NCBI GenBank assembly: GCA_002304315.1
Contig: NEUO01000013.1
Span: 1-39,666, forward strand
DNA: 39,666 nucleotides
Source of the DNA: Verrucomicrobiia bacterium Tous-C4TDCM
Lineage (GTDB): Bacteria > Verrucomicrobiota > Verrucomicrobiia > Verrucomicrobiales > Akkermansiaceae
Direction: 5' to 3'
Of this stretch, positions 1-39,656 are shown piece after piece; the stretch's first letter is position 1; each line of letters starts with the position of its first letter. The position numbers and the translations under genes are program-made. Below the pieces are notes generated by a model. It worked only from the letters and a program-made list of their open reading frames with translations, made no database searches and was not told where the DNA came from.

Positions 1-123
1 CATAATCGCCCGGCCGCGCCCCGAAGGTCAGCCGGTTGACCACGTGCATCGGCCAATCGATTTCCGCCCCGGCCGGCGGCGTCAGCGTCCGCGGCAAGAT
101 CGCCGCCGTCGGTTTCCCGAACC
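1..123 (-). pseudogene. 3' part of host DUF1800 gene, cut by the prophage
   Basis: Read on the minus strand from the 13-bp repeat, this flank encodes an open frame continuing off the left edge. It contains HVVNRLTFGARPGD, the N-terminal signature of DUF1800 proteins (exported bacterial proteins of unknown biochemical role, often beside DUF1501 genes). The frame is continuous with the start fragment at the right end of the window: joining them at the repeat gives a signal peptide, a short linker ending WFGKP-TAAILPR, then the DUF1800 signature. This half has lost its own start codon and signal peptide, so the gene is probably inactive in the lysogen and repaired on excision. The family call rests on one short motif but fits the domain position expected after a signal peptide. 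Confidence 0.75.
111..123. repeat. attL core (13-bp direct repeat)
   Basis: GGTTTCCCGAACC occurs here and again, identically, at 39544-39556; the bases just outside differ. The integrase gene begins about 150 bp inside this copy, as usual for an attachment site. The host reading frame crosses the repeat without a shift when the flanks are joined, which supports it as the strand-exchange core. Identity cannot be extended beyond 13 bp. Confidence 0.85.
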
Positions 124-270
124 GCCGGCCAAGCCTGCAGGCCCGATGCCGCCGCCGTCCCGGCAAAGCGTTTTTCAGAGGAGGAACCGGCCAGAATTCG
201 GCTGCGGATTAGCGGACAGATCGGACACAAAGGTTTGCCTTGGGTGGCTACTTTTGTTCTACTTGGAACA
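124..270. other. attL-integrase intergenic region
   Basis: No gene is supported here. An AGAGGAGGAA purine run lies at about 177-186 but no start codon follows at a useful distance. CGGACA occurs twice at 213-218 and 222-227, nine bases apart. The segment probably holds integrase arm sites and the int promoter; neither could be assigned to specific bases. Confidence 0.4.
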
Positions 271-1530
271 ATGCTCCCCAAGATCTACCGCACGAACCAC
301 CCGACCGCGCCATGGCTCGTCGTTTACAGCGACCCCACGGACCACGACCGCCATGGCAAGGTGAAGAGGATCCGCCGCTGGTTCGCCCAGGAGGCCGAGG
401 CGCGCGCGCACCACACGAGCCTCGTGCGCGCCGCCGCCAACGTCGGCACCGCCGGCCTCAACATGGACGCCAAAGCCCGCGCCGATTATTTCTCGAGCCG
501 CCACCTCCTCGACGCCGCCGGCCTCCAGACCGCATCTTTGACCGACGTCGTCCGCGCCCACCTCGCCACCGCCCCGGTCCCGAGCAACGTCACGTTGCGC
601 GTCGACGCCCTGCTGGCCCAGTTCATCGAGACCAAGAGGAACGACGAGAACGCCGCGCCGCGCACCGTGCGCAATCTCTGGTACCGCCTCGACAGCTGGA
701 GGGAGCGCGAGGACCTCCGCACCGTCGGCGACATTTCGCAGGAGACGCTGCTCCGGCTCCGTTCCCGCCCGGGCGTGAGCGCGCAGAGCCGCATCAACGA
801 CATGGCCGCGGCGTCGTCGTTTTTGTCGTGGCTCGTTGAAAGAGAAATCGTGCCAACCAACCCGCTCCTCAAGCTGCGCCGCCCGCGCACCGACGTCCGC
901 CAGCCGAAGGTACTCCGCCCCCCGCAGGTGCGCGCCCTGCTTGAAGCGGCCCTTGCCCTCGGCGAGGGCCGCCTCGTTCGGTACCTCGCCCTGCAGCTTT
1001 TGGCGGGTTTGCGCCCGAGCGAAGCCGCCGAGCTGCGCCCGGAGCAGGTGACGACCGAGGGCACCGTGACCCTCGTCCGCGTCCTCCGCGGCAAGAAGCG
1101 CGGCAAGATCCGGTCCACGACCACGCTCCCGAATTTCCGCGCGTGGTGGGAGGCGGCCCCATGGCCAGCCCGCACCAAAGAGCCCGAGGGCACGCACGTG
1201 CGCCTATGGGACGAGCTGCGCGACCGCCGCCTATTCGACGCCATCCGCGAGCAGGCAGGCCTCCACGAATGGACCACCGACCCCGGCACCGGCGAGCGCC
1301 GCCGCACCGCCTCCCTGTGGCAAAGCGACATTTGCCGCCACACGTGGATCTCGGTCCGCATCCAGCAAACAAGGAACGAAGCGCTCGTCGCATTCGAGGC
1401 CGGCAACAGCCCAGAAATCATCCACGGCCACTACCTCGCCCTCATCAGCTCCGAAGAGGTGCGCCAGATCGAGGCGATCCGCCCGCAGCGTTTGACCCGG
1501 CGCAAGCCGGCACCTACAACCAAGCCATGA
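271..1530 (+). CDS. int: Tyrosine recombinase / phage integrase
   Basis: This 419-residue protein catalyses integration and excision at the flanking 13-bp repeats. The N-terminal half holds the arm- and core-binding regions; the catalytic domain starts near residue 205. Catalytic positions visible are Arg248 (AGLRPSEAAEL), Arg356-His357 (DICRHTW) and the nucleophile Tyr388 (IHGHY). Two usual positions are replaced: the first His of the HxxR box is Asp353 and the late His/Trp is Asn379 (AGNSP). The GNSP..I..HY arrangement is one I associate with integrases of Verrucomicrobiota. ATG at 271 was chosen because MLPKIYRTNHPTAPW looks like a natural N-terminus; an in-frame TTG at 235 would add 12 residues. 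The stop overlaps the next start (ATGA). It lies immediately inside attL. Confidence 0.93.
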   Translation: MLPKIYRTNHPTAPWLVVYSDPTDHDRHGKVKRIRRWFAQEAEARAHHTSLVRAAANVGTAGLNMDAKARADYFSSRHLLDAAGLQTASLTDVVRAHLATAPVPSNVTLRVDALLAQFIETKRNDENAAPRTVRNLWYRLDSWREREDLRTVGDISQETLLRLRSRPGVSAQSRINDMAAASSFLSWLVEREIVPTNPLLKLRRPRTDVRQPKVLRPPQVRALLEAALALGEGRLVRYLALQLLAGLRPSEAAELRPEQVTTEGTVTLVRVLRGKKRGKIRSTTTLPNFRAWWEAAPWPARTKEPEGTHVRLWDELRDRRLFDAIREQAGLHEWTTDPGTGERRRTASLWQSDICRHTWISVRIQQTRNEALVAFEAGNSPEIIHGHYLALISSEEVRQIEAIRPQRLTRRKPAPTTKP

Positions 1531-1817
1531 ATCCTGCCCGCGCCATCGTCATCGCCCTTGCCGCCGTCGTCGGATTTTCAGCCGGCGCCCTTTGGCACCG
1601 CAGCCACACCGCCCGCTTCGAGATCGTGAACGTCGGCCCCGACCGCAGCTGGATCGCGCGCCTCGACCGCAGCACCGGCACCGTCGCCATGTACGATCGA
1701 CAGCGCGGCGCGTGGATTGCCGTCACCGAGCCGAACCCGTTTGACCGATTCGACGCAAGAGAGACGGCGGCAAAATTGCCTTCAGGGTGGAAGTTGGCCG
1801 ACGAGGCCACCAAGTAA
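1527..1817 (+). CDS. Small membrane-anchored protein with an NPFDRFD motif
   Basis: A 96-residue protein whose ATG overlaps the integrase stop, so the two are translationally coupled. Residues about 5-22 (ARAIVIALAAVVGFSAGALW) form one membrane segment or uncleaved signal anchor. The rest is a small beta-rich region (FEIVNVGPDRSWIARLD) followed by NPFDRFD near residue 70 and a short tail. The same NPFDRFD motif occurs twice at the very N-terminus of the giant virion protein at the other end of the prophage. Being next to int and away from the late genes, it could be made in the lysogen. A role in superinfection exclusion or in docking the giant protein at the membrane is conceivable but is inference. 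I know no named family for it. Confidence 0.75.
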   Translation: MNPARAIVIALAAVVGFSAGALWHRSHTARFEIVNVGPDRSWIARLDRSTGTVAMYDRQRGAWIAVTEPNPFDRFDARETAAKLPSGWKLADEATK

Positions 1818-1825
1818 CTGACGGC

Positions 1826-2320
1826 TTACTTTTTTGCCGCCTGCGGACGGGAGGGAGCCGCCGCAGCAGCCTTAGCTTCATCCAGGAGCACCACCACATC
1901 GCCCAACTCGGCCCGATGCCGAACGATCATACGCGCCAAATCCTCGATCGTTTCGCGGACGTCGTCGTGAACTAAGCACTCCTCCGCGATCAGCGCCAAA
2001 TCCGCGCCGAGGCTGCCTGAAGCAAGATCAGCCTCCTCGGAAGCCGCCGACACGCGAACGTGGCGCTCGTCCAAGCCGGCCACCTCGGCGACCTTCACCA
2101 GATCGCGGAGCCATGCGACCAGCAGCTGCGCGCGTTGCGCGCGGTCGCTCGAAATGACGGCGCAGAGCGTGCCCACTTGATCGGGCATCGGATCGCGGCC
2201 GGAAAGAATGCGGGAAATTGTGCTGTGGGAGATGCCGGACCGGCCAGCTAGGTCCTGTTGCGAAAGCGCCGGCGTTTGAAGCGCCATCAGATCGCGAAGG
2301 GTAGTTTGGAACAAGCTCAC
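1826..2320 (-). CDS. HTH phage repressor (CI-like)
   Basis: The only leftward phage gene, 164 residues from GTG at 2320. Residues about 17-50 (SQQDLAGRSGISHSTISRIL) are a classical XRE-type helix-turn-helix. The C-terminal half is helical and ends in an Ala/Lys-rich tail; no S24/LexA-type Ser-Lys protease signature is visible, so RecA-stimulated self-cleavage is not expected. It faces the early genes across a divergent region with operator-like repeats starting 13 bp upstream of its start. This is the layout of a lysogeny repressor. An upstream ATG at 2380 would extend it by 20 hydrophobic residues and run translation through the operators, so the GTG (or a TTG two codons later) is preferred. 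It converges on the 1527 gene with an 8-bp gap. Confidence 0.85.
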   Translation of the reverse strand: MSLFQTTLRDLMALQTPALSQQDLAGRSGISHSTISRILSGRDPMPDQVGTLCAVISSDRAQRAQLLVAWLRDLVKVAEVAGLDERHVRVSAASEEADLASGSLGADLALIAEECLVHDDVRETIEDLARMIVRHRAELGDVVVLLDEAKAAAAAPSRPQAAKK

Positions 2321-2332
2321 GGCGAGAGCCGC

Positions 2333-2344
2333 GCACAAATGTGC
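2333..2344. promoter_or_regulatory. Operator O1 of the immunity region
   Basis: GCACAAATGTGC has perfect 5-bp inverted arms around AA. It differs at one base from the site at 2386-2397. It lies just upstream of the repressor start, as expected for autoregulation. Repressor binding is inferred. Confidence 0.65.
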
Positions 2345-2374
2345 AGCGAATGCAAGAATGAGCTTGATAAGGAT

Positions 2375-2389
2375 GTGCATGCGATGCAC
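2375..2389. promoter_or_regulatory. Operator O2 (inverted repeat)
   Basis: GTGCATGCGATGCAC has perfect 6-bp arms around GCG. It overlaps the left arm of the neighbouring site at 2386-2397 and uses the same GTGC/GCAC half sites. It may be a weaker or differently spaced site for the same repressor, or a site for another regulator. Confidence 0.5.
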
Positions 2390-2397
2390 GAATGTGC
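2386..2397. promoter_or_regulatory. Operator O3 of the immunity region
   Basis: GCACGAATGTGC matches O1 at 11 of 12 bases. The centres of the two sites are 53 bp apart, about five helical turns, which would allow cooperative binding on one DNA face. It ends six bases before the ATG of the first rightward early gene, so binding would block its transcription. Confidence 0.65.
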
Positions 2398-2403
2398 GGG
2401 CGA

Positions 2404-2603
2404 TGAAACAGACGGGAGACACCACCGCCGACTTTCTACTGGAGCGGCTCCGCCTTTTGCGCCGGCTCGGCTCGCCCGAGCAGAAGCGCGACGTGGAGCG
2501 CTGGGAGCAGATCGTCCGCAGCCACGCCCAAGCCGAAAACCTCGGACAGGTCGTCAATTTTGCGACGCCCACCCCAGCCCCCCAGCCCGCCTCGACCACA
2601 TGA
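2404..2603 (+). CDS. Small early protein, first rightward gene
   Basis: A 65-residue hypothetical protein starting six bases after the operator cluster, where cro or cII would sit in lambdoid phages. It is strongly helical in the middle (FLLERLRLLRRLGSPEQ, ERWEQIVRSHAQAENLG) with a Pro/Thr-rich tail. No clear helix-turn-helix was seen, so it is not called Cro. ATG at 2404 was chosen; an in-frame ATG at 2358 lies among the operators. Its stop overlaps the next start (ATGA), so it is coupled to the Xis-like gene. Confidence 0.65.
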
Positions 2604-2923
2604 GAAACAACCACGCCGCGCTCACGCGCACCGACACCGGAGGACTCGACCTCCGCTGGTTCCCGACCGCCGCCGCCGCCGCCGAGGTGGCCAAGGACCG
2701 CGAGATCGCGCCGCCCAAACCCGCGCGCGGCATCTTGGTCGGCAAGCTCGCCCAGGAGCTCGGCCTCCATCCGCGCACCGTTCGGCGCGCATGGCAGAAC
2801 GGACAGATCCCCGGCGTGGAATTGAGCGCCCGTCGCCTCCTGATTCCGCGCGACGCCTGCAACCTCATCAAGACGTACGGCCTCGGCGGATACATTCGCC
2901 GGATCGCCGCCGGCCGCCACTAA
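2600..2923 (+). CDS. Excisionase-like / MerR-type HTH protein
   Basis: A 107-residue protein. Its C-terminal half (GILVGKLAQELGLHPRTVRR, followed by AWQNGQIPGVELSARRLLIP) matches the HTH_17/excisionase fold: a winged helix with the typical W..G.IPG..L..RRLLIPR pattern seen in small phage DNA-binding proteins. The first 45 residues are low-complexity (Ala-rich) and probably disordered. Lying in the operon directly opposite the repressor, it may be the excisionase or an early transcriptional regulator; the sequence does not decide between these. It overlaps the upstream gene by four bases. Confidence 0.72.
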   Translation: MRNNHAALTRTDTGGLDLRWFPTAAAAAEVAKDREIAPPKPARGILVGKLAQELGLHPRTVRRAWQNGQIPGVELSARRLLIPRDACNLIKTYGLGGYIRRIAAGRH

Positions 2924-2940
2924 CCGCCACCCCGACCACC

Positions 2941-3676: not shown

Positions 3677-3678
3677 CC

Positions 3679-17292: not shown

Positions 17293-18468
17293 GTGAAATT
17301 CTTCCGCTCCCGCACCTACGCCATCGCCGCTCTTGTGGCCTCGGCGCTCGTTGCCTGTTTCTTCTCCGTGCCGGCCGCCGCCGCCACGTTCCTCGCCGCC
17401 AGCGCCGCCGCGCACCTCGCCATCACCCTCGAGTCGATCGATACCGGCGCGATTTACCGCCTCGGTCTCATCAACACGACCGTGGTGGCGAACACCATCC
17501 AGCCGAAGTATTCGAAGAAGCTCCTCGACTACGCCGTGCAGGAAACCCGCCTCGCCGAATTCGCCATGCAGGAGGAGCTCGAGCCCGGCGCCGGCGCGAC
17601 GTCCGTCCGGTTCTTCCGGCCGCCGCAGGCCGACCTGACCGCGACCGGCGCCCCGGCCGCGCTCACGGAAGGCACCGCGCCGACCAACTTCCGCGCCATC
17701 GCGTTTACGCCGGTCGACGTCGCGCTCGCGCAGCGCGGCGAGGTGGCGAAGGTCACCGACATCGCCAACACGGTCGGCCTCGTGAAGTACCTGAACACCG
17801 CCATCCAGCTGATGGGCGAGGAATTCGCGCTCGACGTCGACACCCTCGTGCGGAACCAGCTGTGCCACCCGACGACCGGCATGACCAAGCGCTACGCGCA
17901 AGGCCTCGCCAACTTCGCCGCCATTTCCCCGGCGACGCTGGCCAACGCCCGCCTGCTCCCGCAGGACTTCCTCGACTCGCTGACCCGCCTCAAGATCAAC
18001 CGCGCGCCCAAGGTCAACGGCGTGTACGTGGCGATCATCCCGCCGCAGGGCACCCGCGACATTCTGAACAACTCGGAATTCCGCGAGGTCGTCCGCCAGA
18101 ACTACGCGGACCGGATCTTCAAAGGCGAGATCGGCGACTTCTACGGCTGCCGCTTCATCGAGGGCACGAACCCGTTCCAGGAAGACGAAACCGAGGGCAC
18201 GTTCGCCTCGACGTTCAGCGGCGCCGGCACGAACACCACCGGCCTCGTTTACACGACCATCGTGACCGGCAAAGGCGCGTACGGCACCGTGAACATGAAG
18301 AAGCTCGGCGCCACCATCGCCAAGCCGCAGGTCGTCATCGTGGACAAGGCCGACAGCGGCAACCCGCTGAACCAGTGGATCACGGTCGGCTGGAAGGCGT
18401 TCTGGGCGAGCACCGTCCTCAATGCCAACTGGGGCATCGCGCTCCGCCACAAGAGCCAGTTTGCCTGA
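17293..18468 (+). CDS. Major capsid protein, N4-gp56-like
   Basis: A 391-residue HK97-fold shell protein. From about residue 60 (NTIQPKYSKKLLDYAVQETR) through GTAPTNFRAIAFTPVDVALA and YVAIIPPQGTRDILNNSEFR to the C-terminal KADSGNPLNQWITVGWKAFW it follows the N4 gp56 capsid family. The predicted N-terminus is odd: residues 8-45 (TYAIAALVASALVACFFSVP ...) are strongly hydrophobic, like a signal peptide, in a protein that should stay in the cytoplasm. The start is a GTG without a Shine-Dalgarno site and no ATG lies nearby, so the true start may be further downstream, or the segment is removed during maturation. A strong terminator follows. Confidence 0.83.
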   Translation: MKFFRSRTYAIAALVASALVACFFSVPAAAATFLAASAAAHLAITLESIDTGAIYRLGLINTTVVANTIQPKYSKKLLDYAVQETRLAEFAMQEELEPGAGATSVRFFRPPQADLTATGAPAALTEGTAPTNFRAIAFTPVDVALAQRGEVAKVTDIANTVGLVKYLNTAIQLMGEEFALDVDTLVRNQLCHPTTGMTKRYAQGLANFAAISPATLANARLLPQDFLDSLTRLKINRAPKVNGVYVAIIPPQGTRDILNNSEFREVVRQNYADRIFKGEIGDFYGCRFIEGTNPFQEDETEGTFASTFSGAGTNTTGLVYTTIVTGKGAYGTVNMKKLGATIAKPQVVIVDKADSGNPLNQWITVGWKAFWASTVLNANWGIALRHKSQFA

Positions 18469-27650: not shown

Positions 27651-30600
27651 GTGGCTAACCCGTTCGACCGTTTCGACGTCGCCGACAACAACCCGTTTGA
27701 CCGTTTCGATGAGCCGACGTCGAGCTATCCCGGCGACAAGGCGCGCCGCCTGGGCCGCGAGATCCCGAAGGCCATCGGCCAAGTGATCTCGTCGCCCGGC
27801 ACCGCCGTGCAGTCCGCGGCCCAGCTGGCCGCCGACGCCGCCGGCTGGGTGGCTAAGCGCCGCGGCGACCTGACCGACGAGGAACTCACGCGCGCCCGCG
27901 CCGCGTTGGAGTCCGCGCTGGAGCAGCGCCCGGAAATGCAGGCCGCGCAGGCCATCCGCGACGTGGGCCAGCAGATCGGCGACGTCGGCAAACGGTTCGT
28001 GCCCGATCCCGCCCGCGACCGAGAAATCGGCAGCGTCGTGGCCACCGGGCTCTCGAGCCTTGCGCCGGCCCTTGCCGCCGCCCCGTTCGGCATGATCGGC
28101 CCTGTGGCTGCCACGGCCGGCATGATGGGCGAAAGCCAGCGCGAGGACGCAGCCCAAGCCGGCGCCACGCCGTCCCAGCAGGCCGCCGCCTTTGCCCTCG
28201 GCGCGCCCGTCGGCGCCGCCTCCGAGGCCATGCTCGGTGTGCCCGCCATGCTGCGCGGCCTCCGCGGAGCCAACACGCTCCCGAAGGCCCTGCAGGGCGC
28301 GGAACAGGGCGCCGACGCCCTCATCCAGAAGGCCATCGGCGAGCTGGCCCCGCGGATCGTGCCCGTCGCCCAGCAGGCCCTGAAGAACGCCGTCCGCGAG
28401 GGCATCCAAGAGGGCATCGAGCAGATCACCGGAAATACGATCGCAAAGGATGTCGTCGGCTACGACAAGGAGCGCGATCGCACCGAAGGCCTCGGCACCG
28501 CCATGCTGGCCGGCGGCATCGTCGGCGGCGGCCTCGGCGGCACGTTGGCCGCCCTCGACACCGGCAAGAACATCCCTGAGAGCGCCGCCACCCTGAAGGC
28601 GCAGCAGGAGCAACTCATCGCCGGCAAGCGCCCGGCGCAAATGTTCCCGACCGGCACGAAGGAGCTGGCACTGCCGCAGGGCTTCGAGCGCGTCGAGACC
28701 GAGCGCGGAGTGTTCCACTACGACCCGAAGCAACTCACCGCCGACGACATCCTCACGAAGAGCAAGAACGGCCGCGAGAACGAGCTGCTGAACCTGGGAC
28801 CCGCCAGCAAGGCCGACGTCGACCAGCGCGTCGCCAAGGGCGAATCGCGCGTGGCCGTGACCGAGCGCGCTGCCGACGGCACCGAGATCCGCACCGCCGT
28901 CGCCACCGACGCCACGGCCGACGCCGTCGCGAAGGAGTTCGAGAAGAACAAGTCCGCCGGCAGCAAGATCGCCGTCGAGCCGCTCGACCGCGTGCCCGCC
29001 GAGCGCCGCGCCGCCCAGGGCGGAGGCTTTCTCGGCGACATCATCGCCAAGGACGCCGCCGACATCGCCGCCCGCCGGGCCACCGAAGCCAAGGAGCTGG
29101 CCGACCGCGCCGAGCGCCAGAAGGACCTCGATGACAAGAAGGCCCGCTTCGCCGACCGAATCCAGATGGCGCGCGACGTGTACCGGAACCCGGCCGCCAC
29201 CTTTGCCGAAATCAACGGCGCCATCAAAGGCATCGAGCTCTACGCGAACGACAACAGCATCGGCCTCACCGTCGACCAGCGCACCGAGGCGCAGCGCGCG
29301 CTGCCGGCCCTCGAACGCCGCCTCGAAGCCCTGCGCCCCGCGGAGGAAGCCCGCCGCGACGAGGAGGCCCGCGCGCGGGAGATCCTCGAGAAAGAGCAGG
29401 CCGAGAAGACCAAGCGCGCCCTGCAGGAGCAGAAGGCGAAATTCGAGGCCGAGGCCAACGCCGGCATCGGCGCCTCCGGCGCGTTCGACTACCGCACCGC
29501 CCCGATGGCCGCGCTCGAGGCCAAGGCGGAGCAAGGCGACGACAAAGCCGTCGAGTGGATCTCCCGCCGCATGGCCGAAGAAGAAGAGGCGCAGAACCGC
29601 GGCGACGACCTCCTGAAGGTGCTCCGCCGCGTGAAGCTGCCGGCCACCGACGCCGCCCTCGGAACCGAGCTGCAGCTCCTGAAGATGGAGAGCATGACCG
29701 CGCAGCAGCGGATGAACCTCATCGACAGCAAGGCCGAGGGACTCGACCCCGTCGCCGAGGCCCTGCGCGAGGCCGGCTTTACCAGCATCCAGACGCCCGC
29801 CGACGTCCTCGACGCCGTCGGCCGCGCGCTGGCCGGCGAGAAGATCTACCCGGAGACCGGCGGCGACGTGAGCGTCGAGTTTGCCCGAGGCGGTCAGCAG
29901 CAGGATGGCCCGCCCGAAGGATTCGAGGTCGTCTGGGTGACCGAATCCAAGCTGCTGTCCCTGCTTGGAGAAAAGAAAGAGACCACCGGCGCATGGGTGG
30001 TCCTGCCCAATGGCGTGCGGACCGCGCGGCAACTGATCGACAGCGGCCTGCAGGCCAGCGTCATCGACCGCGATCCGAACACGAGAGCCAGCGACCTGCG
30101 CGACTTCGCGTCCCGCCAGCTCGCCGACATGAAGCCGACGACCCTGCGCGAGGCGAGCCGGCTGGTGAGCCGCATCGTTCCGCGCGCGCAGAGCGCCGAC
30201 ACGCCACCGGCGACGCCAACCCCGGCCGCGCCGCAATCCGACGGATTCGAAATTGTGTGGTCCGACGACCGCGATCTGCTCGTGCTCTTGGGCATGCCGC
30301 GTCGCACGCCCGGCGCGTGGATGCTGCTGCCGACCGGCGTCCGAACTTACGAACAGCTGAAAGAGGCAGGCATCGACGAGGCCGTGGTGCTGACCGAGCG
30401 GCAGGACACGACCGCCGAGACGTTGACGACCATGGCTGCGCAGGCCGTGATGGACATGCGCGGCACCACATCGAGCAAGGCGCGCCAGCTGCTGCGCATT
30501 GTGCCCTACGACCCGGCCAAGGGAATTGCGGCGGCTTCGGCCAACCAGCAACCCGCGGAGCCCGGCCCCGTCCGGCCATTCTCGGAATTCCCACAGGCAG

Positions 30601-33600
30601 GCCGGCTCGTGCAGATGTACCGCGAAGCCACGGGCGGAGGCATGACGAGCAACGAAGCATATGAAGCACTGCAGGCCTACGTCGCGGCCGATAACCGCAG
30701 CGCAACTGCCCAGCGGATCGCCTTCCGCGTCCCGGAGCTGCGCAACCTGCTGGGCGAGGCGTGGAGGTTTGTCCGCGCCGATGGCAACCAGACGCCGGCC
30801 GCCGCACAGCCGCGCCGAACGCCCGAAGAGTACTCCGAGTTTTACTGGCTGACGACGAGATACCAGCAGTACCACGCCGACTACGGCGCAGGCCGCAGCA
30901 TCTCGCGAGAAACGGCCGAAGAGGTGCTCCGCAAATTTCCGTCGGTTTCGAGGGAGACCGCCGCCAAGCACGTCCAAGGCGTGCGCCAGCGCGACACCGT
31001 CCTTGCCGACTATTTGGGCCGGTTTTGGAGCTTCATCAACACCGGCAACGGCAACGACTGGAACTCGTCACGCGTGGCGCCGGCACAGCCCCGACCGGCC
31101 GCAACGCCGGCCACGCCAACCGCGCCAGCTGCGCCACAAACGCCCCCCGCGGAGCCCCAGCCAAAGCTGCAGGACTTCCCCGGATACGACCGCCTGCTCG
31201 GCGATTTCCTGTACTTCGCCAACAACGTCCAATGGCGACCGATGAGCCGCGCGCAGGCCGCCGCCGAGATCGAACGCTACGCCACCGGCACCCAAGCCGA
31301 AGCCGACGCCATCGTGGCCAACATTACCGAACGTCCGATCATCGGCGCGCTTCGGCGCCTGCGCGGCTTCGCCATTCGGCGATCGATTCAGCCGACGCTC
31401 CCCGGAATGCGCGCGCCGGCCCCGGCGCAGCCCCAGCTGACGCCCGAGATCCGCGACCGCCGCACCCGGCTCGCAAAGGTCTTCCGCGCTTTGGCCGACG
31501 TGAAGGACGAGCTGTCGTGGCAATTCAAGAGAACCAAGACCAAGAGCAAGGACCTCGCCGAGGTCGCGAAGGAATTCTCGGCAGGCCGCATCACCCTGAA
31601 GGTCACGCCCGACGAGGATGGCGAGCGCTGGACCATCGAAACAAAAGAGAACGGCCAGCCGTTGGGCGAGTATTCCGTATTCACCAATCCGGCCGTGGCA
31701 GGCCGGAAACAGCTGGTGAACGTGAGCGCCACCGAGGCCGACTCCGACAAGCAGGAGGAGGGCGGAGGCAAGAACGTCTACCAAGCGATTTTCACGTGGG
31801 CCCACAACAACGGCTACCGCGTCCTAGGGAACCACCTGTCGCTCAAAAACCAATTCCGACGGACGGTGAACATGCTGAGCAGCGCCCTGCGCTTCAACAG
31901 CACCGACCACCTCGAACCCTATCACAGCCAGGGAATCGGATCCTGGATCGAAGGAAACACCGACAACAACATCGGCGCCATGCTGGAGGCTTTGAGCAGC
32001 CGCGTGGCAATCATGGCCCCCAAGGTCTCGTCGTTGACCTACGACATCAAGACGGATACGGTCGTAGACCAAAATGACGGCCGAAAATTCACCCCCGCTG
32101 AGCTTCGAGACTTTGTGCGAGAGACTGGACTCGTTGAACAAGGAATCGGTCCGGCAACTTTGCGCGTCGTGCTCCTTGCCCGAGCCGAAATGGCCGCTAA
32201 CGCCCGCGGCCAAAGACTCCCTGCTGCGCGCGCACTTCGTGCAGCGAGCGAAGGCGTTCTCGGTCGCGTCCTCTACGCCCGAGGAAATCGACCGGCAGAC
32301 GGCAGCGCTCGACGCGGAGCTGGGAGCCGTCCTGACCAAGCTGCGCCCCGAGATCTACGCGCCGGCACCGCCCCGGAGCTGACCGACCAGCAGGTCGAGA
32401 AGGAGGTCGCGGCGATCCGCAAGGCCTTCCCGAAGCTGGTCGAGGAAAACGACGTTCAGCTGGCCAACGTGCAGCGCGCGCTTGCGCAGCGCGCCAAAGA
32501 TCTGGACGTCGACATCGGCTACGTGCCGCCGGAGGTGCAGGCCGCCGTCATGCGCGTGAAGGGCCAACGCACGCTGATCGTGCTCGGCGCGCGCGCCTAC
32601 CGGGACCGCGCCAAGGGCGCAGCGCTCCTGACCCACGAGATGGCCCACCCGTTCTGGGACATGCTGCCGTGGCAAACGAAGGACGCCCTGCGCGACCTGC
32701 ACCGCGCAGAGAAGGATACCCGCAGCGGCCCGCTCTACCGCGACGGCAAGCTCCAGACCGAACTCGCCTACGTGGAAGACATGGACGAGAACGGCCACAA
32801 GGAATGGTTTGCCGAGCGCATCGCCCGGTTGAACGAAAGCTGGGCCAAGGAGAAGATGGACGCCAGCGATTCGACGCTGCTGCGCCGCCTCGCGTATCAG
32901 CTGCGCGAATACCTCCGCCGGATTTGGCGCGCGTTCGCCGCCAACGAAGGCGTCGACCCGGACGGCAAGCTGTTCGTGGACGACTTCCGCGCCTTTTTCG
33001 CCAGCGGAGGAAACCTCGCCTTGGCCCGCCAAGCCGGCGCGGATTTTGCGCAGAGCATGATGGCCCTCGACACGCCGCTCGGCATCAGACTGCCCAGCGA
33101 GATCCGCAACCTGCAGCCGCGCTGGAACGACAAGATCCTGCGCTTCGAGAGCGCCCTCGACAAAGCCCTCTACTACGCCGGCGGAGAAAACACCGTCACG
33201 CGCGGCATCGTGCGCGACGCCCTCGCGCAGCAGACCGGCCTGAAGTATGGCCAAATCGCCACGGCGGCCCGTGAGCTGCGGGACAAACTCGCCCCGCTTG
33301 CGCGCAGCGCCGCGCGCGACGGCACCATCCGCGTGCCGAGCCAGATGCAGCAGGAGGTCGCCGCCATGACCGGCACCGAGTTTGCCAGCGGCAAAAAGCC
33401 GAAGCTCGACCCGGCCGCCGCGGAGCGCGAGTACGCCGCCGCCTTCGACAACATCCTCGAAAACTACTACCAGCAGGCCCGCGACTCCGTGGCCAAAAAC
33501 CCGCCGCGCACCTCCGCCGAGGACGTCGCCAAAGAGCGCGGCCAGGTGCTCACACCGGAGCAGGCGGCCGCAAAGCTCGAGGAGTGGAAGGCCGAGGCCC

Positions 33601-36600
33601 GGAAGCAGGGCCGCACCGGCAAGAATTCCGGCAAGACCATCCTGTCCCTTTTCGATTCGACCGGCGTCTGGAGCCAGCCGTGGCGCGATGCCGGATACAA
33701 CGTCGTCCAAGTCGACCAGAACATCGTCGGCGGCGACGGCTACGAGATGGACGTCCTGAAGATCGACCAAGAGTGGCTCATGGACAACGGCCTCGACATG
33801 GTGCACGGCGTGCTCGCCGCGTGCCCGTGCACGGAGTTTGCCGGCAGCGGAGCCCGCTGGTTCGCCATCAAGGACGCCGACGGCCGCACGGAAAAAGCCA
33901 AGCAGCTCGTGGAGCACACGCTCGCCGTGATCGAGTACCTGCAGCCCGACGGATTCTGGGCCCTCGAAAATCCCATCGGCCGTATCAAGGAGGTGACGGA
34001 GATCCCGCTCGAGCGCCTGCAGTTTCAGCCGCACAACTACGGCGACCCGTACACGAAGCGCACGCAGATTTTCGGCATGTTCAACGCCGACCTGCCGCAG
34101 GCCAACGTGGCGCCCACCGGCGGCAGCTACTCGTGGAACCTGAGCGGCAGCAGCGAAAGCAGCAAAGCCGAGCGCTCGAAGACCTTCGAGGGATTCGCGT
34201 ATTCGTTCTTCATGGCGAACAAAGACCGCGACGCGTGGGCGGAGGCCGACGAGCTCGCCCGCCAGAACGTCGAGGCCCGCCAGCGCGCCGACGACGCGCC
34301 CGCCACGACCAGCGCGCAGAGCGACCCGGATGGCCAATTCGGGCTGGAATTCGCCACCGGCGGCGGCATCCCGGAATTGCCGCAATACCCCCGCGGGGCC
34401 GAGGCCATCGCGCGCGAAATCCCGCGCGCGAAGCGCCAGGCCGACGAGTGGCGCGACATCATGCCGAGCTTTCAGGGCTGGAAGCGCGACATGGCGACCT
34501 ACGCCGCCGACGCCATCCGCAAGAAACTCACCGAGGAGCAGCGCGAGAAGATCACCGAGATCCATGATTGGTTCGGGGGCGGCGGCTCGTGGGGTTTGCA
34601 CCTCGCGCTGACCCATTTCCCGAAGGCGACCAAGCTGACGGTGCACGAATTCCTGCCGGCCCGCCTCGCCAAGATCCGCCGCTTTCACACCGAAGGCGCA
34701 GGCATCAAGGCGAGCATCGATGCGATCACGCCGCAGATCGAAACCGCCCGCGACGAAATGTACCGCGACGGCAAACCGTCCCCCGCCGCCTTTGTGACGC
34801 GGCTGAAAAAGCAATTCCCGCAGGAGCCCGACGAAGCGACGGCCGCCATCCTGCAGGCCATCGAGGACCGAGCCGACAACGACTTTGCGTCCTCGACCGA
34901 CGAAGAGGGCAACCGCGACGCGCGGAAGAGCATCGAGGACTTGCTGCGTGCCGTCGTTGACGATGCAGCCGCCGCCCAACGCGGTGCCTTCATGTTCACG
35001 ACCGGCCGCGGCGGAACCATCGAGTACCAGACCGGCGACTCCTACGCCGGCGCCGTCGAGCCCAGCGAAACCACCCTGAGCGTCTTTGACCCGCCCTACT
35101 ACAAGACTGCCGGATATTCGGCCGCCGACTCGAACGCCGGCAAGGTGCCCATTTCCATCTACGAAAAAACCGGCCGCCGCCTCAACGAACTCGCGCGCGC
35201 CGGCCATGCCGTCGTGTACACCGACTCCGCGTGGTGGATCGATGAGCGGCGCGCCGCCGAGGCCGCCGCCAAGCAGAAGACCGACCAGCCCGGCCTCGCC
35301 ATCGGCGACGTCGCCAGCGTGAAGCCCGACGAGCGCGGGACCGCGTTTGCCAATTACATCCTCGCCTCCCTCGACCATGCCGCCATCGTCCCCATCAAGA
35401 CCCGCCATGAAGTCCTCGCCGTCCATGCCCCCGGCAGCACCACGCGAGCCGGCGCCGCCGAAGAGCCGCGCCGATTTGGTGGTGACGCTGGGGGTGTTCA
35501 GCAACGGCCTGCTGACGGACAAGGAGCTGGCGCAGCTGAGCAAGCTGAGCTACCAGCAGCTACCGCCCAAGCTGCAGCGGCTGGTGGACCCGACTTGGCC
35601 GTTCCTGCAGGAGCCGGAACCGAATCCGCCCAAGTGGGTGGAGGAAATCCTCGGCAGCGACTCGAAGCCGAATACGCCGCCGCCCGCGACCAGTTCGACC
35701 TCCTGACCGAGGAGGCCGAGAAGATCCAAGCGGACATCGAAGGCCTGCGCGAGAGCCAGGAAGCCGACGCCGAAACCCAGCTGCGCGCCCGATACTCTGA
35801 GCTGCGCGACAACGAGGCCGCCCTGCGGCGAGCGTACGCGCGCGCGAGCGAGCTGCGCAGCCAGCTCGACGCCACCAAGCCGACCAAGGTCGCGCTGCCC
35901 GAAGGCGCCACCGCCGACGACATCATCGCGCAGGCGGCTCGCGTCGAGGCCCTGCCGAAGACCGACCGCAAGGGCGCGTTGATCGCCGAATGGCGCTACG
36001 GCAAGAAGCTCCGCGAGGAAGGCATCCGCGTCGGCAACGACACCGCGGAGTCCGAGGGCCAGCAGATCATGAACAAGGCGAAGGCCCGCCTCGATGACGA
36101 GTACCCCGGCTGGGAGAAGGAGGCGTACGCCAAGCCCGCCAATCGCCGTCCGCCACCACCGCCGCCGCCGCCCGACCCGGAGACCGCCCAGGAGGCCGAC
36201 CTCGAACCGTCGCCGTTTGCCGAGCCGCCGAAGGACATGCCCGTGCGCAGCGGCAAGATGCTCGAGCTTTTCGGCAACAGCTCCGTCAAACCGACCATCC
36301 TCGAGCGAACGTGGGAGCGCGTCGCCGACGTGTTCCGCGGCATCCGTGGCAGCGTGCCCGAGTTGCCCGCCTTTGCCGGCGCCCGTTGGAACCAGAGCGA
36401 CCCGTTCATCAAGGAGCACGGGCCCAGCTTTTACGACGGAATCAAATCGTTTTACCGCACGCTGGTCAGCGCCAACGACGGCATCCAGCGCGACGCGGAG
36501 CAGCAGGTCGCCGAGATCACCCGCCCCCTCATCGAGGCCGGCGGCCGATTCAACGCGAGCGATTACGCCAAGCTGCGCCGCTACCAAGAGGCCGCGCGCG

Positions 36601-39494
36601 CCGCACGTGCGGAGAACCGCCCGGTTCCCGCGGCCACGCAGATCGCGATCGAGGCCCTGAACGCCAAGCTCGAGTCGCACCCGTACGTGATGTTCAACCG
36701 GATCGTGCTGCTGCTCGACCTGAAGTGGCGCCACGAGAACCTCAAGGACTCGCAGGGCAACCCGATCCGCCTCCCGGCCGGCGTCAACGAAGAGGAAATC
36801 AAAGCCGAGCTCGAGCGCCTGCAGCTGGCCGCCGTCGCGCAGGGCCACCGCGACCTCATCCTTGCCGCGGTCACGAAGCACATCGCGCTCGTGAAGAAGG
36901 TGGCCGACGACCTGAGCGCCCGCGACCTCATGACGCCGCAGGCCGTGCGGAACACGTTCTACTTCCCCCACGTCACCCTGCAGGTGACCCGCGGCGGCCA
37001 GACCGAGGAGCGCGAGCTGCGCCCGAGCCGAGTCCGTCCAGGCACCGAGGCCGACTTCCGCGGTTACCTCGAAGATCCGGTCGGCAGCACGAAGCCCATC
37101 GAGACCGACTACGTGGCCGCCATGTACTACCACCTCGTGCAGGTCGGCGCCCACAACACCAAGGCGGACGCAGTCCGCGACTTCGCGCGGCCCTACGACG
37201 TGCGCGGCGAGGTGGAGAAGCGCGCCAAGGAGCTCGCCGCCGAGCGCGGCCAATCGGTCAGCTGGGAGCAGACCTTTCACGAGGAGTATGCGCCGCGTGG
37301 ATACGTCCTCTACGGCACCGAGAGCCGCGACGCATTCCCGAGCATCAACGTGGACCGCGACAAGCTCGCGCGCCGGCTGGGCGTCATGCTGACGAGCGAC
37401 GACCTGCAGCAGCAGCTGAAGCAGCTTGGCGTGCCCGTCACGCTGCTACCCGAGGACTTGCGCGAAACCCTGCAGCAGGGCCAGCGCGAGACGTGGGTGG
37501 TGCCGGCCCGCGTGGCCGAGGCCCTCCGCGGCATCGCCGACCGCCAGAGCCAGCATGACGGCGCCATCGACACCGCCGTCAAAGGAACGCTGCGCGCGTG
37601 GAAGAGCTGGAAACTTTTCATGCCGTGGAACCACGTGCGCTACGAGTGGAACAACGCCGTGGCCGACATCGAGAAGGTCGTGTCCGCCAGCCCGGCGACG
37701 TTGCGCCACCTGCCGCAGGCCGCCCGCGAGATCCGCAGCCTGTGGCTCGGCGAGGCGCCCGGCGCCGACCTGCAGCAGGCCGTGCGTTTGGGTGTCATCA
37801 ACACCGTGACGGCGCAGGAGATGTCCGCGCTGACGCGCCTGCCGAACTTCCGCGCGTTCGAGTCGTGGTCGGAAAAGCTGCAGGCCGAGACGACCTCCAT
37901 CCTTTCGGCGCCCATCGCCAACGCCACCCGGCTCTTTGGCGGCACCGGCGTCCTGGGCCGCGTCAGCTCCGTCGAGGAAAGCGCCTACCGGGAGGCCGTG
38001 TTCCGGTATGCCAAATTCATCGGCGACCTGAAGGCCATCCGCGCGAACGCCCGGCCCGCCTACGCCGGAGCCTACTGGCGCGACATCGAAGCCATCAAGG
38101 ACTCGCGACCCGGCGCCGCCGACGCCGCCGTGCGCAAGGCCGCAGCCATCAGCAAGGCGACGTTCGGCGATTACGGCGACCTGTCGGTGTTGGGCCAATC
38201 CGTCCGCGACCGCCTCGTGCCGTTTTACAGCTGGCTCGAGATCAACTTCCGCTACCACGCGAACCTGCTGCGCAACATGCGCGACATGGTGCGCGCCGGA
38301 GAAGCCAGCCGCGCCGAGGCCGCCGGCACCGGAGCCCGCGCTGCCGCCGTGTTCGCCGCCGGGTTCACCGCGCGCGCCGCCGGAGGCATCGCCCTGCGCC
38401 TCGCGCTGCCGTACGCCGCGGTCATCCTTTGGAATTCGACCGGCGACCGCGACGAGCTGGAGGAGCTGCTGAGCGACGAGGACAAGCGCCGCTTCCACAT
38501 CATCGTGGGCGAGAGCAGCGACGGGAACACGACGCTGCGCGACGGCCGCAAGGTGGAGGTCATCTACGCCGCCACCGCCCTCATGGACGTCCTCAAGTGG
38601 TTTTCCGGGCCGCAGCTGGCCCAGGCCGCCGGCTCGTGGCTCAATGGCCGCCAGACGTTCCCGCAGGCTTTCACCACGTGGCGCGACGGCGTGGCCAACG
38701 ACCTCGCGAACAACCTCGCGCAGTCCGTCGGCCCCGCGTTCAAGATCCCGTACACGCTCGCCAGCGGCAAAAACCCGTTCCCCGACGTCGCCGACCAGCG
38801 CACCATCCCGAGCTACGACATGCGCCGGACCATCCTCGGCCAGATGACCGACGAGGCCACTGCCGACGTCATCGAGCGCACGGCCAACAAGGACTACTAC
38901 GCCGCCAAGGACCTCGGCGATTGGGCGAAGCAACTCATCCTGCAGGTCCGCCAGCGCGACCCCGACTCGTGGGCGTTCTACGAGATCAAGGACCGCGCGC
39001 AGGACTTCCTGCAGGAGCGCACCGGCCGCAAACGTTCGAGCGACTACGACGCGCCCGACCAGCAGGTCCTTCGCAACTTCCGCCGCGCCATCTTCCGCGG
39101 CGACGTCGAGAAGGCCGCGCAGTTTTACCTCCGCCTGCTGGACTACGGATACACCGCCGAACGGTTCGCCGCGAGCATCCGCGCCCAAGACCCGCTGGCC
39201 CAGCTGCCCAAGGAGGACGGCACCCGCCGAGCCTTCGTGGACAGCCTGAACCCGACCGACCGCGAGATCCTGCAGCGCGCCTACGCCTACTACACGCGCA
39301 TCAACGCGAGCCAGGGCCGCGAGGCGCGCCTGTTCCCGCGGGCCGAGACCGGCGAGCGAGGCCTCGAACGCTACCGGCTGGCGCCGCGCACCGCGGAGCT
39401 TGGCCGCATGATGGAGGCCGGCGCCGCCGCGACCGAGGAAGACGAGCTGGCGCGGGCCGAACGCGCCCTCCGCAAGAGCCTGCAAAAACAGTGA
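27651..39494 (+). CDS. Giant polyvalent virion protein: zincin, C5-type and DPPY methylases
   Basis: A 3947-residue protein from GTG 27651. In order: NPFDRFD twice (residues 3-9, 14-20); hydrophobic segments (about 130-160, 280-302); coiled coils (about 467-603); repeat pair A (752-850, 863-958); repeat triplet B (973-1048, 1056-1137, 1172-1247); an alpha/beta domain (about 1263-1490) with GGGKNVYQAIFTWAHNNGYR; an HEMAH zinc peptidase (His1662-Glu1663, His1666, later EWFAER); a cytosine-methylase domain (about 1995-2200; Cys-Pro-Cys2060, ENP2106-2108); an amino-methylase domain (DWFGGGGSWG from 2306, DPPY 2480-2483); a coiled coil (2669-2745); an eight-proline hinge; and a helical C-terminal region like the large polyvalent-protein domains. 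It is presumably packaged and ejected with the DNA, methylating it and removing host defence proteins. Two linkers carry nested ORFs. Confidence 0.85.
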   Translation: MANPFDRFDVADNNPFDRFDEPTSSYPGDKARRLGREIPKAIGQVISSPGTAVQSAAQLAADAAGWVAKRRGDLTDEELTRARAALESALEQRPEMQAAQAIRDVGQQIGDVGKRFVPDPARDREIGSVVATGLSSLAPALAAAPFGMIGPVAATAGMMGESQREDAAQAGATPSQQAAAFALGAPVGAASEAMLGVPAMLRGLRGANTLPKALQGAEQGADALIQKAIGELAPRIVPVAQQALKNAVREGIQEGIEQITGNTIAKDVVGYDKERDRTEGLGTAMLAGGIVGGGLGGTLAALDTGKNIPESAATLKAQQEQLIAGKRPAQMFPTGTKELALPQGFERVETERGVFHYDPKQLTADDILTKSKNGRENELLNLGPASKADVDQRVAKGESRVAVTERAADGTEIRTAVATDATADAVAKEFEKNKSAGSKIAVEPLDRVPAERRAAQGGGFLGDIIAKDAADIAARRATEAKELADRAERQKDLDDKKARFADRIQMARDVYRNPAATFAEINGAIKGIELYANDNSIGLTVDQRTEAQRALPALERRLEALRPAEEARRDEEARAREILEKEQAEKTKRALQEQKAKFEAEANAGIGASGAFDYRTAPMAALEAKAEQGDDKAVEWISRRMAEEEEAQNRGDDLLKVLRRVKLPATDAALGTELQLLKMESMTAQQRMNLIDSKAEGLDPVAEALREAGFTSIQTPADVLDAVGRALAGEKIYPETGGDVSVEFARGGQQQDGPPEGFEVVWVTESKLLSLLGEKKETTGAWVVLPNGVRTARQLIDSGLQASVIDRDPNTRASDLRDFASRQLADMKPTTLREASRLVSRIVPRAQSADTPPATPTPAAPQSDGFEIVWSDDRDLLVLLGMPRRTPGAWMLLPTGVRTYEQLKEAGIDEAVVLTERQDTTAETLTTMAAQAVMDMRGTTSSKARQLLRIVPYDPAKGIAAASANQQPAEPGPVRPFSEFPQAGRLVQMYREATGGGMTSNEAYEALQAYVAADNRSATAQRIAFRVPELRNLLGEAWRFVRADGNQTPAAAQPRRTPEEYSEFYWLTTRYQQYHADYGAGRSISRETAEEVLRKFPSVSRETAAKHVQGVRQRDTVLADYLGRFWSFINTGNGNDWNSSRVAPAQPRPAATPATPTAPAAPQTPPAEPQPKLQDFPGYDRLLGDFLYFANNVQWRPMSRAQAAAEIERYATGTQAEADAIVANITERPIIGALRRLRGFAIRRSIQPTLPGMRAPAPAQPQLTPEIRDRRTRLAKVFRALADVKDELSWQFKRTKTKSKDLAEVAKEFSAGRITLKVTPDEDGERWTIETKENGQPLGEYSVFTNPAVAGRKQLVNVSATEADSDKQEEGGGKNVYQAIFTWAHNNGYRVLGNHLSLKNQFRRTVNMLSSALRFNSTDHLEPYHSQGIGSWIEGNTDNNIGAMLEALSSRVAIMAPKVSSLTYDIKTDTVVDQNDGRKFTPAELRDFVRETGLVEQGIGPATLRVVLLARAEMAANARGQRLPAARALRAASEGVLGRVLYARGNRPADGSARRGAGSRPDQAAPRDLRAGTAPELTDQQVEKEVAAIRKAFPKLVEENDVQLANVQRALAQRAKDLDVDIGYVPPEVQAAVMRVKGQRTLIVLGARAYRDRAKGAALLTHEMAHPFWDMLPWQTKDALRDLHRAEKDTRSGPLYRDGKLQTELAYVEDMDENGHKEWFAERIARLNESWAKEKMDASDSTLLRRLAYQLREYLRRIWRAFAANEGVDPDGKLFVDDFRAFFASGGNLALARQAGADFAQSMMALDTPLGIRLPSEIRNLQPRWNDKILRFESALDKALYYAGGENTVTRGIVRDALAQQTGLKYGQIATAARELRDKLAPLARSAARDGTIRVPSQMQQEVAAMTGTEFASGKKPKLDPAAAEREYAAAFDNILENYYQQARDSVAKNPPRTSAEDVAKERGQVLTPEQAAAKLEEWKAEARKQGRTGKNSGKTILSLFDSTGVWSQPWRDAGYNVVQVDQNIVGGDGYEMDVLKIDQEWLMDNGLDMVHGVLAACPCTEFAGSGARWFAIKDADGRTEKAKQLVEHTLAVIEYLQPDGFWALENPIGRIKEVTEIPLERLQFQPHNYGDPYTKRTQIFGMFNADLPQANVAPTGGSYSWNLSGSSESSKAERSKTFEGFAYSFFMANKDRDAWAEADELARQNVEARQRADDAPATTSAQSDPDGQFGLEFATGGGIPELPQYPRGAEAIAREIPRAKRQADEWRDIMPSFQGWKRDMATYAADAIRKKLTEEQREKITEIHDWFGGGGSWGLHLALTHFPKATKLTVHEFLPARLAKIRRFHTEGAGIKASIDAITPQIETARDEMYRDGKPSPAAFVTRLKKQFPQEPDEATAAILQAIEDRADNDFASSTDEEGNRDARKSIEDLLRAVVDDAAAAQRGAFMFTTGRGGTIEYQTGDSYAGAVEPSETTLSVFDPPYYKTAGYSAADSNAGKVPISIYEKTGRRLNELARAGHAVVYTDSAWWIDERRAAEAAAKQKTDQPGLAIGDVASVKPDERGTAFANYILASLDHAAIVPIKTRHEVLAVHAPGSTTRAGAAEEPRRFGGDAGGVQQRPADGQGAGAAEQAELPAATAQAAAAGGPDLAVPAGAGTESAQVGGGNPRQRLEAEYAAARDQFDLLTEEAEKIQADIEGLRESQEADAETQLRARYSELRDNEAALRRAYARASELRSQLDATKPTKVALPEGATADDIIAQAARVEALPKTDRKGALIAEWRYGKKLREEGIRVGNDTAESEGQQIMNKAKARLDDEYPGWEKEAYAKPANRRPPPPPPPPDPETAQEADLEPSPFAEPPKDMPVRSGKMLELFGNSSVKPTILERTWERVADVFRGIRGSVPELPAFAGARWNQSDPFIKEHGPSFYDGIKSFYRTLVSANDGIQRDAEQQVAEITRPLIEAGGRFNASDYAKLRRYQEAARAARAENRPVPAATQIAIEALNAKLESHPYVMFNRIVLLLDLKWRHENLKDSQGNPIRLPAGVNEEEIKAELERLQLAAVAQGHRDLILAAVTKHIALVKKVADDLSARDLMTPQAVRNTFYFPHVTLQVTRGGQTEERELRPSRVRPGTEADFRGYLEDPVGSTKPIETDYVAAMYYHLVQVGAHNTKADAVRDFARPYDVRGEVEKRAKELAAERGQSVSWEQTFHEEYAPRGYVLYGTESRDAFPSINVDRDKLARRLGVMLTSDDLQQQLKQLGVPVTLLPEDLRETLQQGQRETWVVPARVAEALRGIADRQSQHDGAIDTAVKGTLRAWKSWKLFMPWNHVRYEWNNAVADIEKVVSASPATLRHLPQAAREIRSLWLGEAPGADLQQAVRLGVINTVTAQEMSALTRLPNFRAFESWSEKLQAETTSILSAPIANATRLFGGTGVLGRVSSVEESAYREAVFRYAKFIGDLKAIRANARPAYAGAYWRDIEAIKDSRPGAADAAVRKAAAISKATFGDYGDLSVLGQSVRDRLVPFYSWLEINFRYHANLLRNMRDMVRAGEASRAEAAGTGARAAAVFAAGFTARAAGGIALRLALPYAAVILWNSTGDRDELEELLSDEDKRRFHIIVGESSDGNTTLRDGRKVEVIYAATALMDVLKWFSGPQLAQAAGSWLNGRQTFPQAFTTWRDGVANDLANNLAQSVGPAFKIPYTLASGKNPFPDVADQRTIPSYDMRRTILGQMTDEATADVIERTANKDYYAAKDLGDWAKQLILQVRQRDPDSWAFYEIKDRAQDFLQERTGRKRSSDYDAPDQQVLRNFRRAIFRGDVEKAAQFYLRLLDYGYTAERFAASIRAQDPLAQLPKEDGTRRAFVDSLNPTDREILQRAYAYYTRINASQGREARLFPRAETGERGLERYRLAPRTAELGRMMEAGAAATEEDELARAERALRKSLQKQ
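29905..30525 (+). repeat. Tandem protein repeat A (two copies of about 88 residues)
   Basis: Copy one begins GFEVVWVTESKLLSLLG and copy two GFEIVWSDDRDLLVLLG. Both continue with GAW(V/M).LP.GVRT..QL and end IVP. They align over nearly their whole length at low identity, so the duplication is old. Possibly a small globular alpha/beta module. Confidence 0.75.
30568..31391 (+). repeat. Repeat B (three copies of about 76 residues)
   Basis: Copies begin FSEFPQAGRLVQMYREA, PEEYSEFYWLTTRYQQY and LQDFPGYDRLLGDFLYF. Each has a following S-x-x-x-A helix, then a helix ending in L-x-x-x-W/G-x-F. The units are separated by Pro/Ala linkers (for example AAPQTPPAEPQP). All are helical; no known family is recognised. 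Confidence 0.65.
32074..32382 (+). CDS. Nested ORF 1 inside the giant gene (+1 frame)
   Basis: A 102-codon ORF with ATG at 32074, wholly inside the giant gene in the +1 frame. In the 70 codons from 32148 only 10 nested-frame codons end in A or T, against 34 in the giant frame, although the giant frame is GC-biased on both sides. The nested product reads as a soluble helical protein (SFETLCERLDSLNKESVRQL, SSTPEEIDRQTAALDAELGA). The overlapping giant-frame residues (RGQRLPAARALRAASEG...) look like a passive translation. It lies in the linker between the alpha/beta domain and the zinc peptidase. It could be a separate protein from an internal start or a relic of an older gene. Function unknown. 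Confidence 0.6.
   Translation: MTAENSPPLSFETLCERLDSLNKESVRQLCASCSLPEPKWPLTPAAKDSLLRAHFVQRAKAFSVASSTPEEIDRQTAALDAELGAVLTKLRPEIYAPAPPRS
35407..35706 (+). CDS. Nested ORF 2 inside the giant gene (+1 frame)
   Basis: A 99-codon ORF with ATG at 35407 in a CCGCCATG context matching other phage genes here, wholly inside the giant gene in the +1 frame. Over 40 codons from 35472, 28 giant-frame codons end in A or T but only 2 of the nested-frame codons do, a strong sign that selection acts on the nested frame. The product has a Pro-rich start, a helical core (DLVVTLGVFSNGLLTDKELA, QLSKLSYQQLPPKLQRLVDP) and a Pro/Ser tail. In the giant frame this stretch is low-complexity Ala/Gly/Gln. It occupies the linker after the DPPY methylase domain. 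No family is recognised; a methylase partner or independent small protein is possible. Confidence 0.7.
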   Translation: MKSSPSMPPAAPREPAPPKSRADLVVTLGVFSNGLLTDKELAQLSKLSYQQLPPKLQRLVDPTWPFLQEPEPNPPKWVEEILGSDSKPNTPPPATSSTS

Positions 39495-39498
39495 GTGT

Positions 39499-39515
39499 GT
39501 CTACAAAGGGTCTAC
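39499..39515. promoter_or_regulatory. Paired TCTAC repeats inside attR, possible integrase/Xis arm sites
   Basis: TCTAC occurs at 39500-39504 and 39511-39515, 11 bp apart, about one helical turn, in the short gap between the giant gene stop and attR. This is a position and spacing typical of recombinase or excisionase arm sites. Not matched to a copy at the left end, so tentative. Confidence 0.35.
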
Positions 39516-39656
39516 GCCGGGCCGGCTACGAGTGAGGGACGCAGGTTTCCCGAACCATCGCTTCACCGCCGTCACCTCCGCCTTCGTGCAGCCGCTCCCG
39601 ACGGCCACCGCGGCCGCCGCCCCGCCCGCGACAAAGTGCCGCCGCGTCACCTTCAT
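39501..39656 (-). pseudogene. 5' part of host DUF1800 gene with Tat signal peptide
   Basis: From ATG at 39656 the minus strand encodes a signal peptide with the twin-arginine motif TRRHFV, an Ala/Gly/Val-rich hydrophobic core and a possible lipidation cysteine (VGSGC). It then runs KAEVTAVKRWFGK into the 13-bp repeat. Beyond the repeat the frame continues into phage DNA for about a dozen codons and stops at 39501. So in the lysogen only an exported stub of about 50 residues can be made. The remainder of the gene is at the left end of the window. Confidence 0.8.
39544..39556. repeat. attR core (13-bp direct repeat)
   Basis: Second exact copy of GGTTTCCCGAACC, 50 bp after the giant gene stop. 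It lies within the host DUF1800 gene at the junction of the signal-peptide region and the mature protein. Recombination with 111-123 would remove a 39,433-bp circle and restore the host gene. Confidence 0.85.

Follow-up and report, generated by a model that had tools for sequence, protein, structure and literature searches.

The locus described here raises the question of how a temperate phage came to lie inside the gene of an exported protein, and what the insertion means for that gene and for the integrase that made it. The window, that is, the whole stretch of DNA analysed, comprises 39,666 nucleotides of contig NEUO01000013.1, which was binned as Verrucomicrobiia bacterium Tous-C4TDCM. A preliminary description had placed a prophage at positions 1-39656, interrupting a Tat-exported DUF1800 gene, with the reading frame kept across a 13-bp core. 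Taken as a whole, the analysis makes it quite likely that this is an Opitutaceae prophage splitting a DUF1800 gene at a site that was polymorphic in the sampled population, and that its integrase lineage changed target from a tRNA-Arg gene to a protein gene.

A direct repeat search of the window revealed two copies of GGTTTCCCGAACC (13 bp, + strand), namely the attL core at 111-123 and the attR core at 39544-39556, and no third copy in the whole genome bin to which the window belongs. The identity is limited to exactly 13 bp, with different adjoining bases on both sides, and the repeat length given in the preliminary description therefore stands, no longer repeat being present. The prophage proper runs from about 124 to 39543 (approximately 39.4 kb), and the remainder consists of 123-bp host flanks, core counted in, that end with the contig. 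A prophage is thus present, but the limits first proposed for it take in host DNA at both outer ends.

When the two flanks (1-123 and 39557-39666, reverse strand) are joined, they form a single open frame, MKVTRRHFVAGGAAAAVAVGSGCTKAEVTAVKRWFGKP followed by TAAILPRTLTPPAGAEIDWPMHVVNRLTFGARPGDY, which begins MKVTRRHFVAGG, crosses the core as RWFGKP and runs into HVVNRLTFGARPGDY. The right flank carries the start codon and a Tat-type signal, TRRHFV...GSGC (39557..39656, - strand), is identical to contig NEUS01000069.1 (L026) and has orthologues in L024 and L025; the left flank, attL core included, carries the start of the domain-coding part of the DUF1800 gene (1..123, - strand), as indicated by the match of the joined product and by 85% DNA identity over 118 bp to the genome of L024. 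The flanks do share one frame, as had been claimed, but this is not an extra feature, because conservative site-specific recombination necessitates it and no additional finding follows.

The uninterrupted gene, which the preliminary description had proposed to look for in relatives, was found by a genome-wide scan in two Opitutaceae/Opitutae MAGs. The orthologue in JAIXWF010000011.1 (L024) shows 80% identity over 74/74 residues with equal length, and that in CANGHW010000026.1 (L025) shows 62% identity across the joint. Their products, of 519 and 521 aa, respectively, contain a full DUF1800 domain (PF08811; E = 1e-126 and 8e-123) that begins at residue 60 and 62. It is through these orthologues that the target is assigned to DUF1800; of the domain itself the window encodes no more than the first residues, and the joined piece of 76 aa, taken alone, falls short of the Pfam DUF1800 model. 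The domain start at residue 60-62 places the insertion, at about codon 36, in the linker between the Tat-type signal and the domain. The location of the prophage inside a DUF1800 gene with a Tat-type signal is thus borne out by the repeat, the joined frame and the intact orthologues. The core differs from each of the two orthologous genes by one mismatch. In L024 the next gene after DUF1800 encodes a DUF1501 protein; DUF1800-DUF1501 pairs have been described, with a twin-arginine motif in DUF1501 (PMC5122149). Both in L024 and in L026, the 3' end of a small upstream gene overlaps the DUF1800 start codon. As a separate observation, a further sequence close to the core (GGTTCGGGAAAC, 12 bp) lies at 2975-2986 of L026, at the 3' end of the gene that precedes DUF1800; it is absent from L024 and is either a chance occurrence or a secondary site.

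The DNA between the cores is arranged as one ordered phage genome of about 39.4 kb, with an integrase gene beside one att site and the core direct repeats bounding the phage genes. The tyrosine integrase (271..1530, + strand; phrog_1 E=1e-23) shows the catalytic-type set R-K-(H/D)xxR-Y, as R248, K275, R356, H357 and Y388 are invariant in a three-sequence alignment with two relatives, and against Pfam PF00589 alone its score is under the cut-off. ATG 271 is preferred as its start, because a TTG at 235 would overlap the arm-type sites discussed below. The other assigned genes encode an HTH regulator that is a candidate repressor (1826..2920, - strand; PF13560/PF01381), a DUF2303 phage protein (4040..5356, + strand; PF10065 E=2.5e-52), a portal protein by similarity (13863..15827, + strand; 27.7% identity to the annotated portal of MW202524), the major capsid protein (17293..18468, + strand; phrog_1357 E=9e-36), a concanavalin-like (Laminin_G_3) protein of the structural region that is a candidate sugar- or receptor-binding protein (18950-20590), a protein with weak similarity to head-closure/connector proteins (23503..25056, + strand; phrog_578 E=8e-7, phrog_5107 E=4e-9) and a 3947-aa large polyvalent protein with an LPD37 domain (27651..39494, + strand; PF18853 E=1e-17). 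This last single ORF takes up 30% of the phage, and the best match in the relatives is to its C-terminal third. Among the phage genes no terminase could be assigned, and no defence system stood out.

Two relatives of similar size were recovered from IMG/VR with a capsid query and a three-sequence integrase profile: IMGVR_UViG_3300034117_002225 (G408; 38,859 bp) and IMGVR_UViG_2508501067_000006 (G412; 39,501 bp). In comparison with the window, their integrases are 37-39% identical, their capsid proteins approximately 61-62% and the C-terminal third of their polyvalent proteins 54-59%. A single-sequence integrase query found no relative in IMG/VR, and in a capsid search of 384 genomes of the class the window was the sole match. 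The window probably represents a complete temperate prophage of an Opitutaceae bacterium.

This host assignment differs from that of the bin. Contig NEUS01000069.1, from the MAG Opitutae Tous-C1TDCM (genome G404), matches the right flank without a difference and stops at the last base of the attR core. The two contigs thus overlap by exactly 123 bases (L026 2991-3113), the length of each host flank with the core counted in. The only other end-to-end overlaps among the contigs sampled from both bins (L065/L142 and L073/L148) are also of exactly 123 bases, and for this reason the 123 bases are taken as an assembly graph overlap; three further contig pairs share starts of 120-122 bases. According to the paper describing these MAGs, the summer 13-m sample was assembled with IDBA-UD and maxk 100 (PMC5673642), a setting that is not an obvious source of a 123-base overlap, though three contig pairs show it. 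The sampled contigs of the window's bin (G000) have GC contents of approximately 0.62-0.65 and most contigs of G404 have 0.65-0.70, the window standing at 0.676, and its tetranucleotide profile is closer to G404 (0.926) than to G000 (0.897). No alignment of more than 300 bp is shared between the samples of the two bins that were compared. On the strength of the exact graph overlap, the GC content and the tetranucleotide profile, the prophage contig was most likely mis-binned in Tous-C4TDCM, and the MAG of its real host is probably Opitutae Tous-C1TDCM. The left host flank, with the body of DUF1800, was found neither in G404 nor elsewhere in G000; its contig was perhaps too short to be binned. 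A mis-binned prophage contig of this kind would yield a wrong phage-host assignment.

An artificial joining of flanks and phage during assembly would fit a contig that extends only 110 bp past each core and was binned with a different organism. Such a chimera is hardly credible here, as both flanks come from one orthologous gene and meet at the same 13-bp core, the integrase and the arm-type sites lie beside the core, and the overlap with the host contig is exact.

On either side, the contig break falls precisely at the core, which implies that in the assembly graph each flank could also be continued in another way from that base. The second allele in the sample would most simply be the empty site, the alternative being a different element inserted there; this is deduced from the graph geometry and not from a direct read, and a different prophage using this core would give the same picture. 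Contig-end overlaps can in this way expose polymorphic integration sites in published assemblies. The preliminary description had likened the locus to active lysogeny. As a regulatory switch of this kind, the phage would leave and re-enter in response to a cue and so toggle the export of DUF1800/DUF1501 proteins. The disruption of the gene without replacement, as in cases of regulated gene integrity (PMC10111431; hlb, PMC6597384; hlyII, PMC3335513), and the presence of a second allele speak for such a regulatory switch. On the other hand, lysogens mixed with never-infected cells account for the second allele equally well, and neither the cue nor a tie to the function of DUF1800 is known. Furthermore, no path of an excised circle is visible, the contig being uncut where the core meets the phage, which argues weakly against frequent excision, and no match to the attP was found in IMG/VR. 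A regulatory switch is regarded as improbable.

The effect of the prophage on the host gene can be read from both of its ends. The DUF1800 gene is split and is rebuilt by the element at neither end, in agreement with the statement that nothing is rebuilt. At attR, the fusion frame (39501..39656, - strand) gives a 51-aa stub composed of the signal and 13 phage-encoded residues before a stop. At attL, the frame into DUF1800 (1..208, - strand) stays open through about 28 phage codons and carries no signal peptide; its only starts are two TTG codons (166 and 97) and an ATG at 49, which is internal. A simple scan found no promoter-like site near either prophage end. Given this absence of rebuilding, the stub and the domain devoid of a signal, the exported DUF1800 protein would be lost in the lysogen and excision would restore the gene, as had been anticipated.

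The origin of such a site is best approached through the related integrases. In a manual count covering two bacterial orders, a complete tRNA gene adjoins the integrase on the same strand at about 20 of 59 related loci. None of the loci tested has a DUF1800 gene nearby, and the DUF1800 site was found in one case only. In four related elements (G836, G811, G776 and G756) the far end could be located. Their att repeat measures 45-47 bp; it begins within the anticodon arm, at tRNA nucleotide 29-32, extends as far as the 3' end and rebuilds the tRNA. The window has no such repeat; its 13 bp lie in a protein gene, and no tRNA was found in it. In G408, what comes after the attP core resembles the 3' half of a tRNA-Thr, an assignment made from intact tRNA-Thr genes with a similar arm and from a related integrase beside tRNA-Thr(CGT).

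The core GGTTTCCCGAACC was compared with the tRNA-Arg sequences GGTTTCCTAAACC or GGTTTCCGGTACC. In register with the arms, it matches the tRNA-Arg(CCG) of G776 and the host tRNA-Arg(CCT) at 11/13 positions each and the tRNA-Arg(TCT) arm of G836 at 10/13, in comparison with only 4/13 and 7/13 for the Thr arm of G811 and the Met arm of G756, the relatives with mapped target sites having integrases only about 26-39% identical. Genomic 13-mers that match the host tRNA-Arg(CCT) arm at 11/13 or more occur at a frequency of 1.3e-5, which rises to 5.6e-5 for any of the six arms used by relatives and to 6e-4 for a library of 25 arms on both strands; all three values are optimistic, the idea having arisen from the same data.

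Further evidence comes from the arm-type sites. The 214-bp attP contains five [GT][GT]CTAC sites, and any equal stretch elsewhere contains at most two. On the P side, CTAC occurs at 39501, 39512 and 39526 (39501..39529, + strand), that is, 43, 32 and 18 bp ahead of the core; on the P' side it occurs at 248 and 259 (248..262, + strand), these sites being recognised by their clustering in attP. The attP core of G408 is flanked on both sides by TTGGCTACAGT, the first copy lying 44 bp before the core. In the four relatives that use the anticodon arm, CTAC pairs at 43/32 bp are absent, which leaves the window phage, G408 and one element of the host genome as the only carriers of the arm motif.

This element, in contig C15 of G404 (L143 7957-9510), is an insertion of 1,478 bp with tRNA-Arg(CCT) on one side and, on the other, a partial copy of this tRNA (47 bp) that starts exactly at GGTTTCCTAAACC. 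CTAC occurs 43 and 32 bp before its core, the same spacing as in the window. Without regard to position, the P arm aligns no better than shuffles (35/500), so the evidence on that side is the shared spacing. At its other end, beyond the tRNA, the element aligns to the window just after attL with a score of 62, in comparison with 46 for the best of 500 shuffles. Among 252 genomes of the family, G404 alone shows the P-arm sites and the spacing pattern with zero mismatch. The insertion codes for a Phd/YefM antitoxin together with a zeta-toxin-like protein and lacks an integrase gene; it may be what a deletion has left of a sibling phage, or else a small satellite, possibly using the phage integrase in trans. 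In either case, tRNA-Arg(CCT) has been used in this host by an element whose ends resemble those of the window phage, and this speaks for a switch to DUF1800. The further proposal that the switched phage acts as a reversible export switch in freshwater Opitutaceae, and that the 1.5-kb toxin-antitoxin element uses the same integrase in trans, is highly improbable as a combination.

The resemblance of the core to a tRNA arm could instead be a chance likeness in an otherwise ordinary gene-disrupting lysogeny, since an anticodon arm is palindromic in itself and short palindromic cores are usual among tyrosine recombinases. The comparison was also made after the resemblance had been noticed, and the probability attached to the resemblance is optimistic to that extent. 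Chance is nonetheless considered unlikely, as it would have to account for the register, the orientation and the 11/13 match to the very arm at which an element with homologous ends has inserted in this host, together with arm-site spacing that is identical in the window and in that element. No decayed tRNA 3' half was found after the core in the window, where 246 of 500 shuffles scored as well, so the direction of the switch is something that we infer.

In the preferred reading, a target switch, the tyrosine integrase would have recombined its attP core with the same 13 bp at about codon 36 of the DUF1800 gene. This integrase is one of a group in which tRNA genes are frequent targets, with the crossover in the anticodon arm, and the DUF1800 site would be a look-alike of that arm; the lineage thus most likely moved from tRNA-Arg to the protein gene with its arm-type sites kept. 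As the attP carries no gene replacement, lysogeny splits the gene into a 51-aa signal stub and a domain devoid of a signal or native start. The assembly graph suggests that this site was polymorphic in the sampled population.

Parts of this picture have precedents. Prophages that split a gene without rebuilding it are known from hlb (PMC6597384) and hlyII (PMC3335513), where phiSa3int and phIS3501, respectively, likewise interrupt the gene of an exported protein that precise excision would restore; they differ from the window phage in integrase, host and target gene, and it is for them that excision and restored expression have been studied. Replacement sequences in attP are the usual rule, and one integrase subclade uses tRNA-Phe in some elements and the capsid gene capE in others (PMC10111431). 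The HE-PICI and this capE/tRNA-Phe subclade offer a precedent for very similar integrases targeting a protein gene or a tRNA, and for disruption without replacement; HE-PICI, however, are satellites in helper-prophage late genes of Enterobacteriaceae, and their integrases differ from that of the window (PMC10111431). Another example is the dusA-associated integrases, which are tyrosine integrases acting at the 5' part of a protein gene, as in the window (PMC4482086); dusA is a target common to many bacteria and its islands may restore DusA, in contrast to the single case found for DUF1800.

Also comparable are the integrators of the tRNA anticodon arm, namely the four relatives above and Islander-type islands (PMC4383910), which share a related integrase and the same crossover position in a palindromic core. 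They repeat the tRNA 3' half over 45-47 bp, whereas the window phage has a 13-bp repeat in a protein gene and leaves its target unrestored. Gene-splitting prophages are thus already known, and the window adds a new example to them, one in which the proposed target switch is unusually traceable. It provides a testable case of an integrase lineage that normally rebuilds tRNA genes and spares its host moving to a protein gene and becoming gene-disrupting, with related elements of both kinds, tRNA-using and gene-disrupting, in one host. As a minor observation, genome G798 carries two integrase copies of the related clade (L179 and L204), one beside tRNA-Arg(CCG) and the other beside its 3' fragment.
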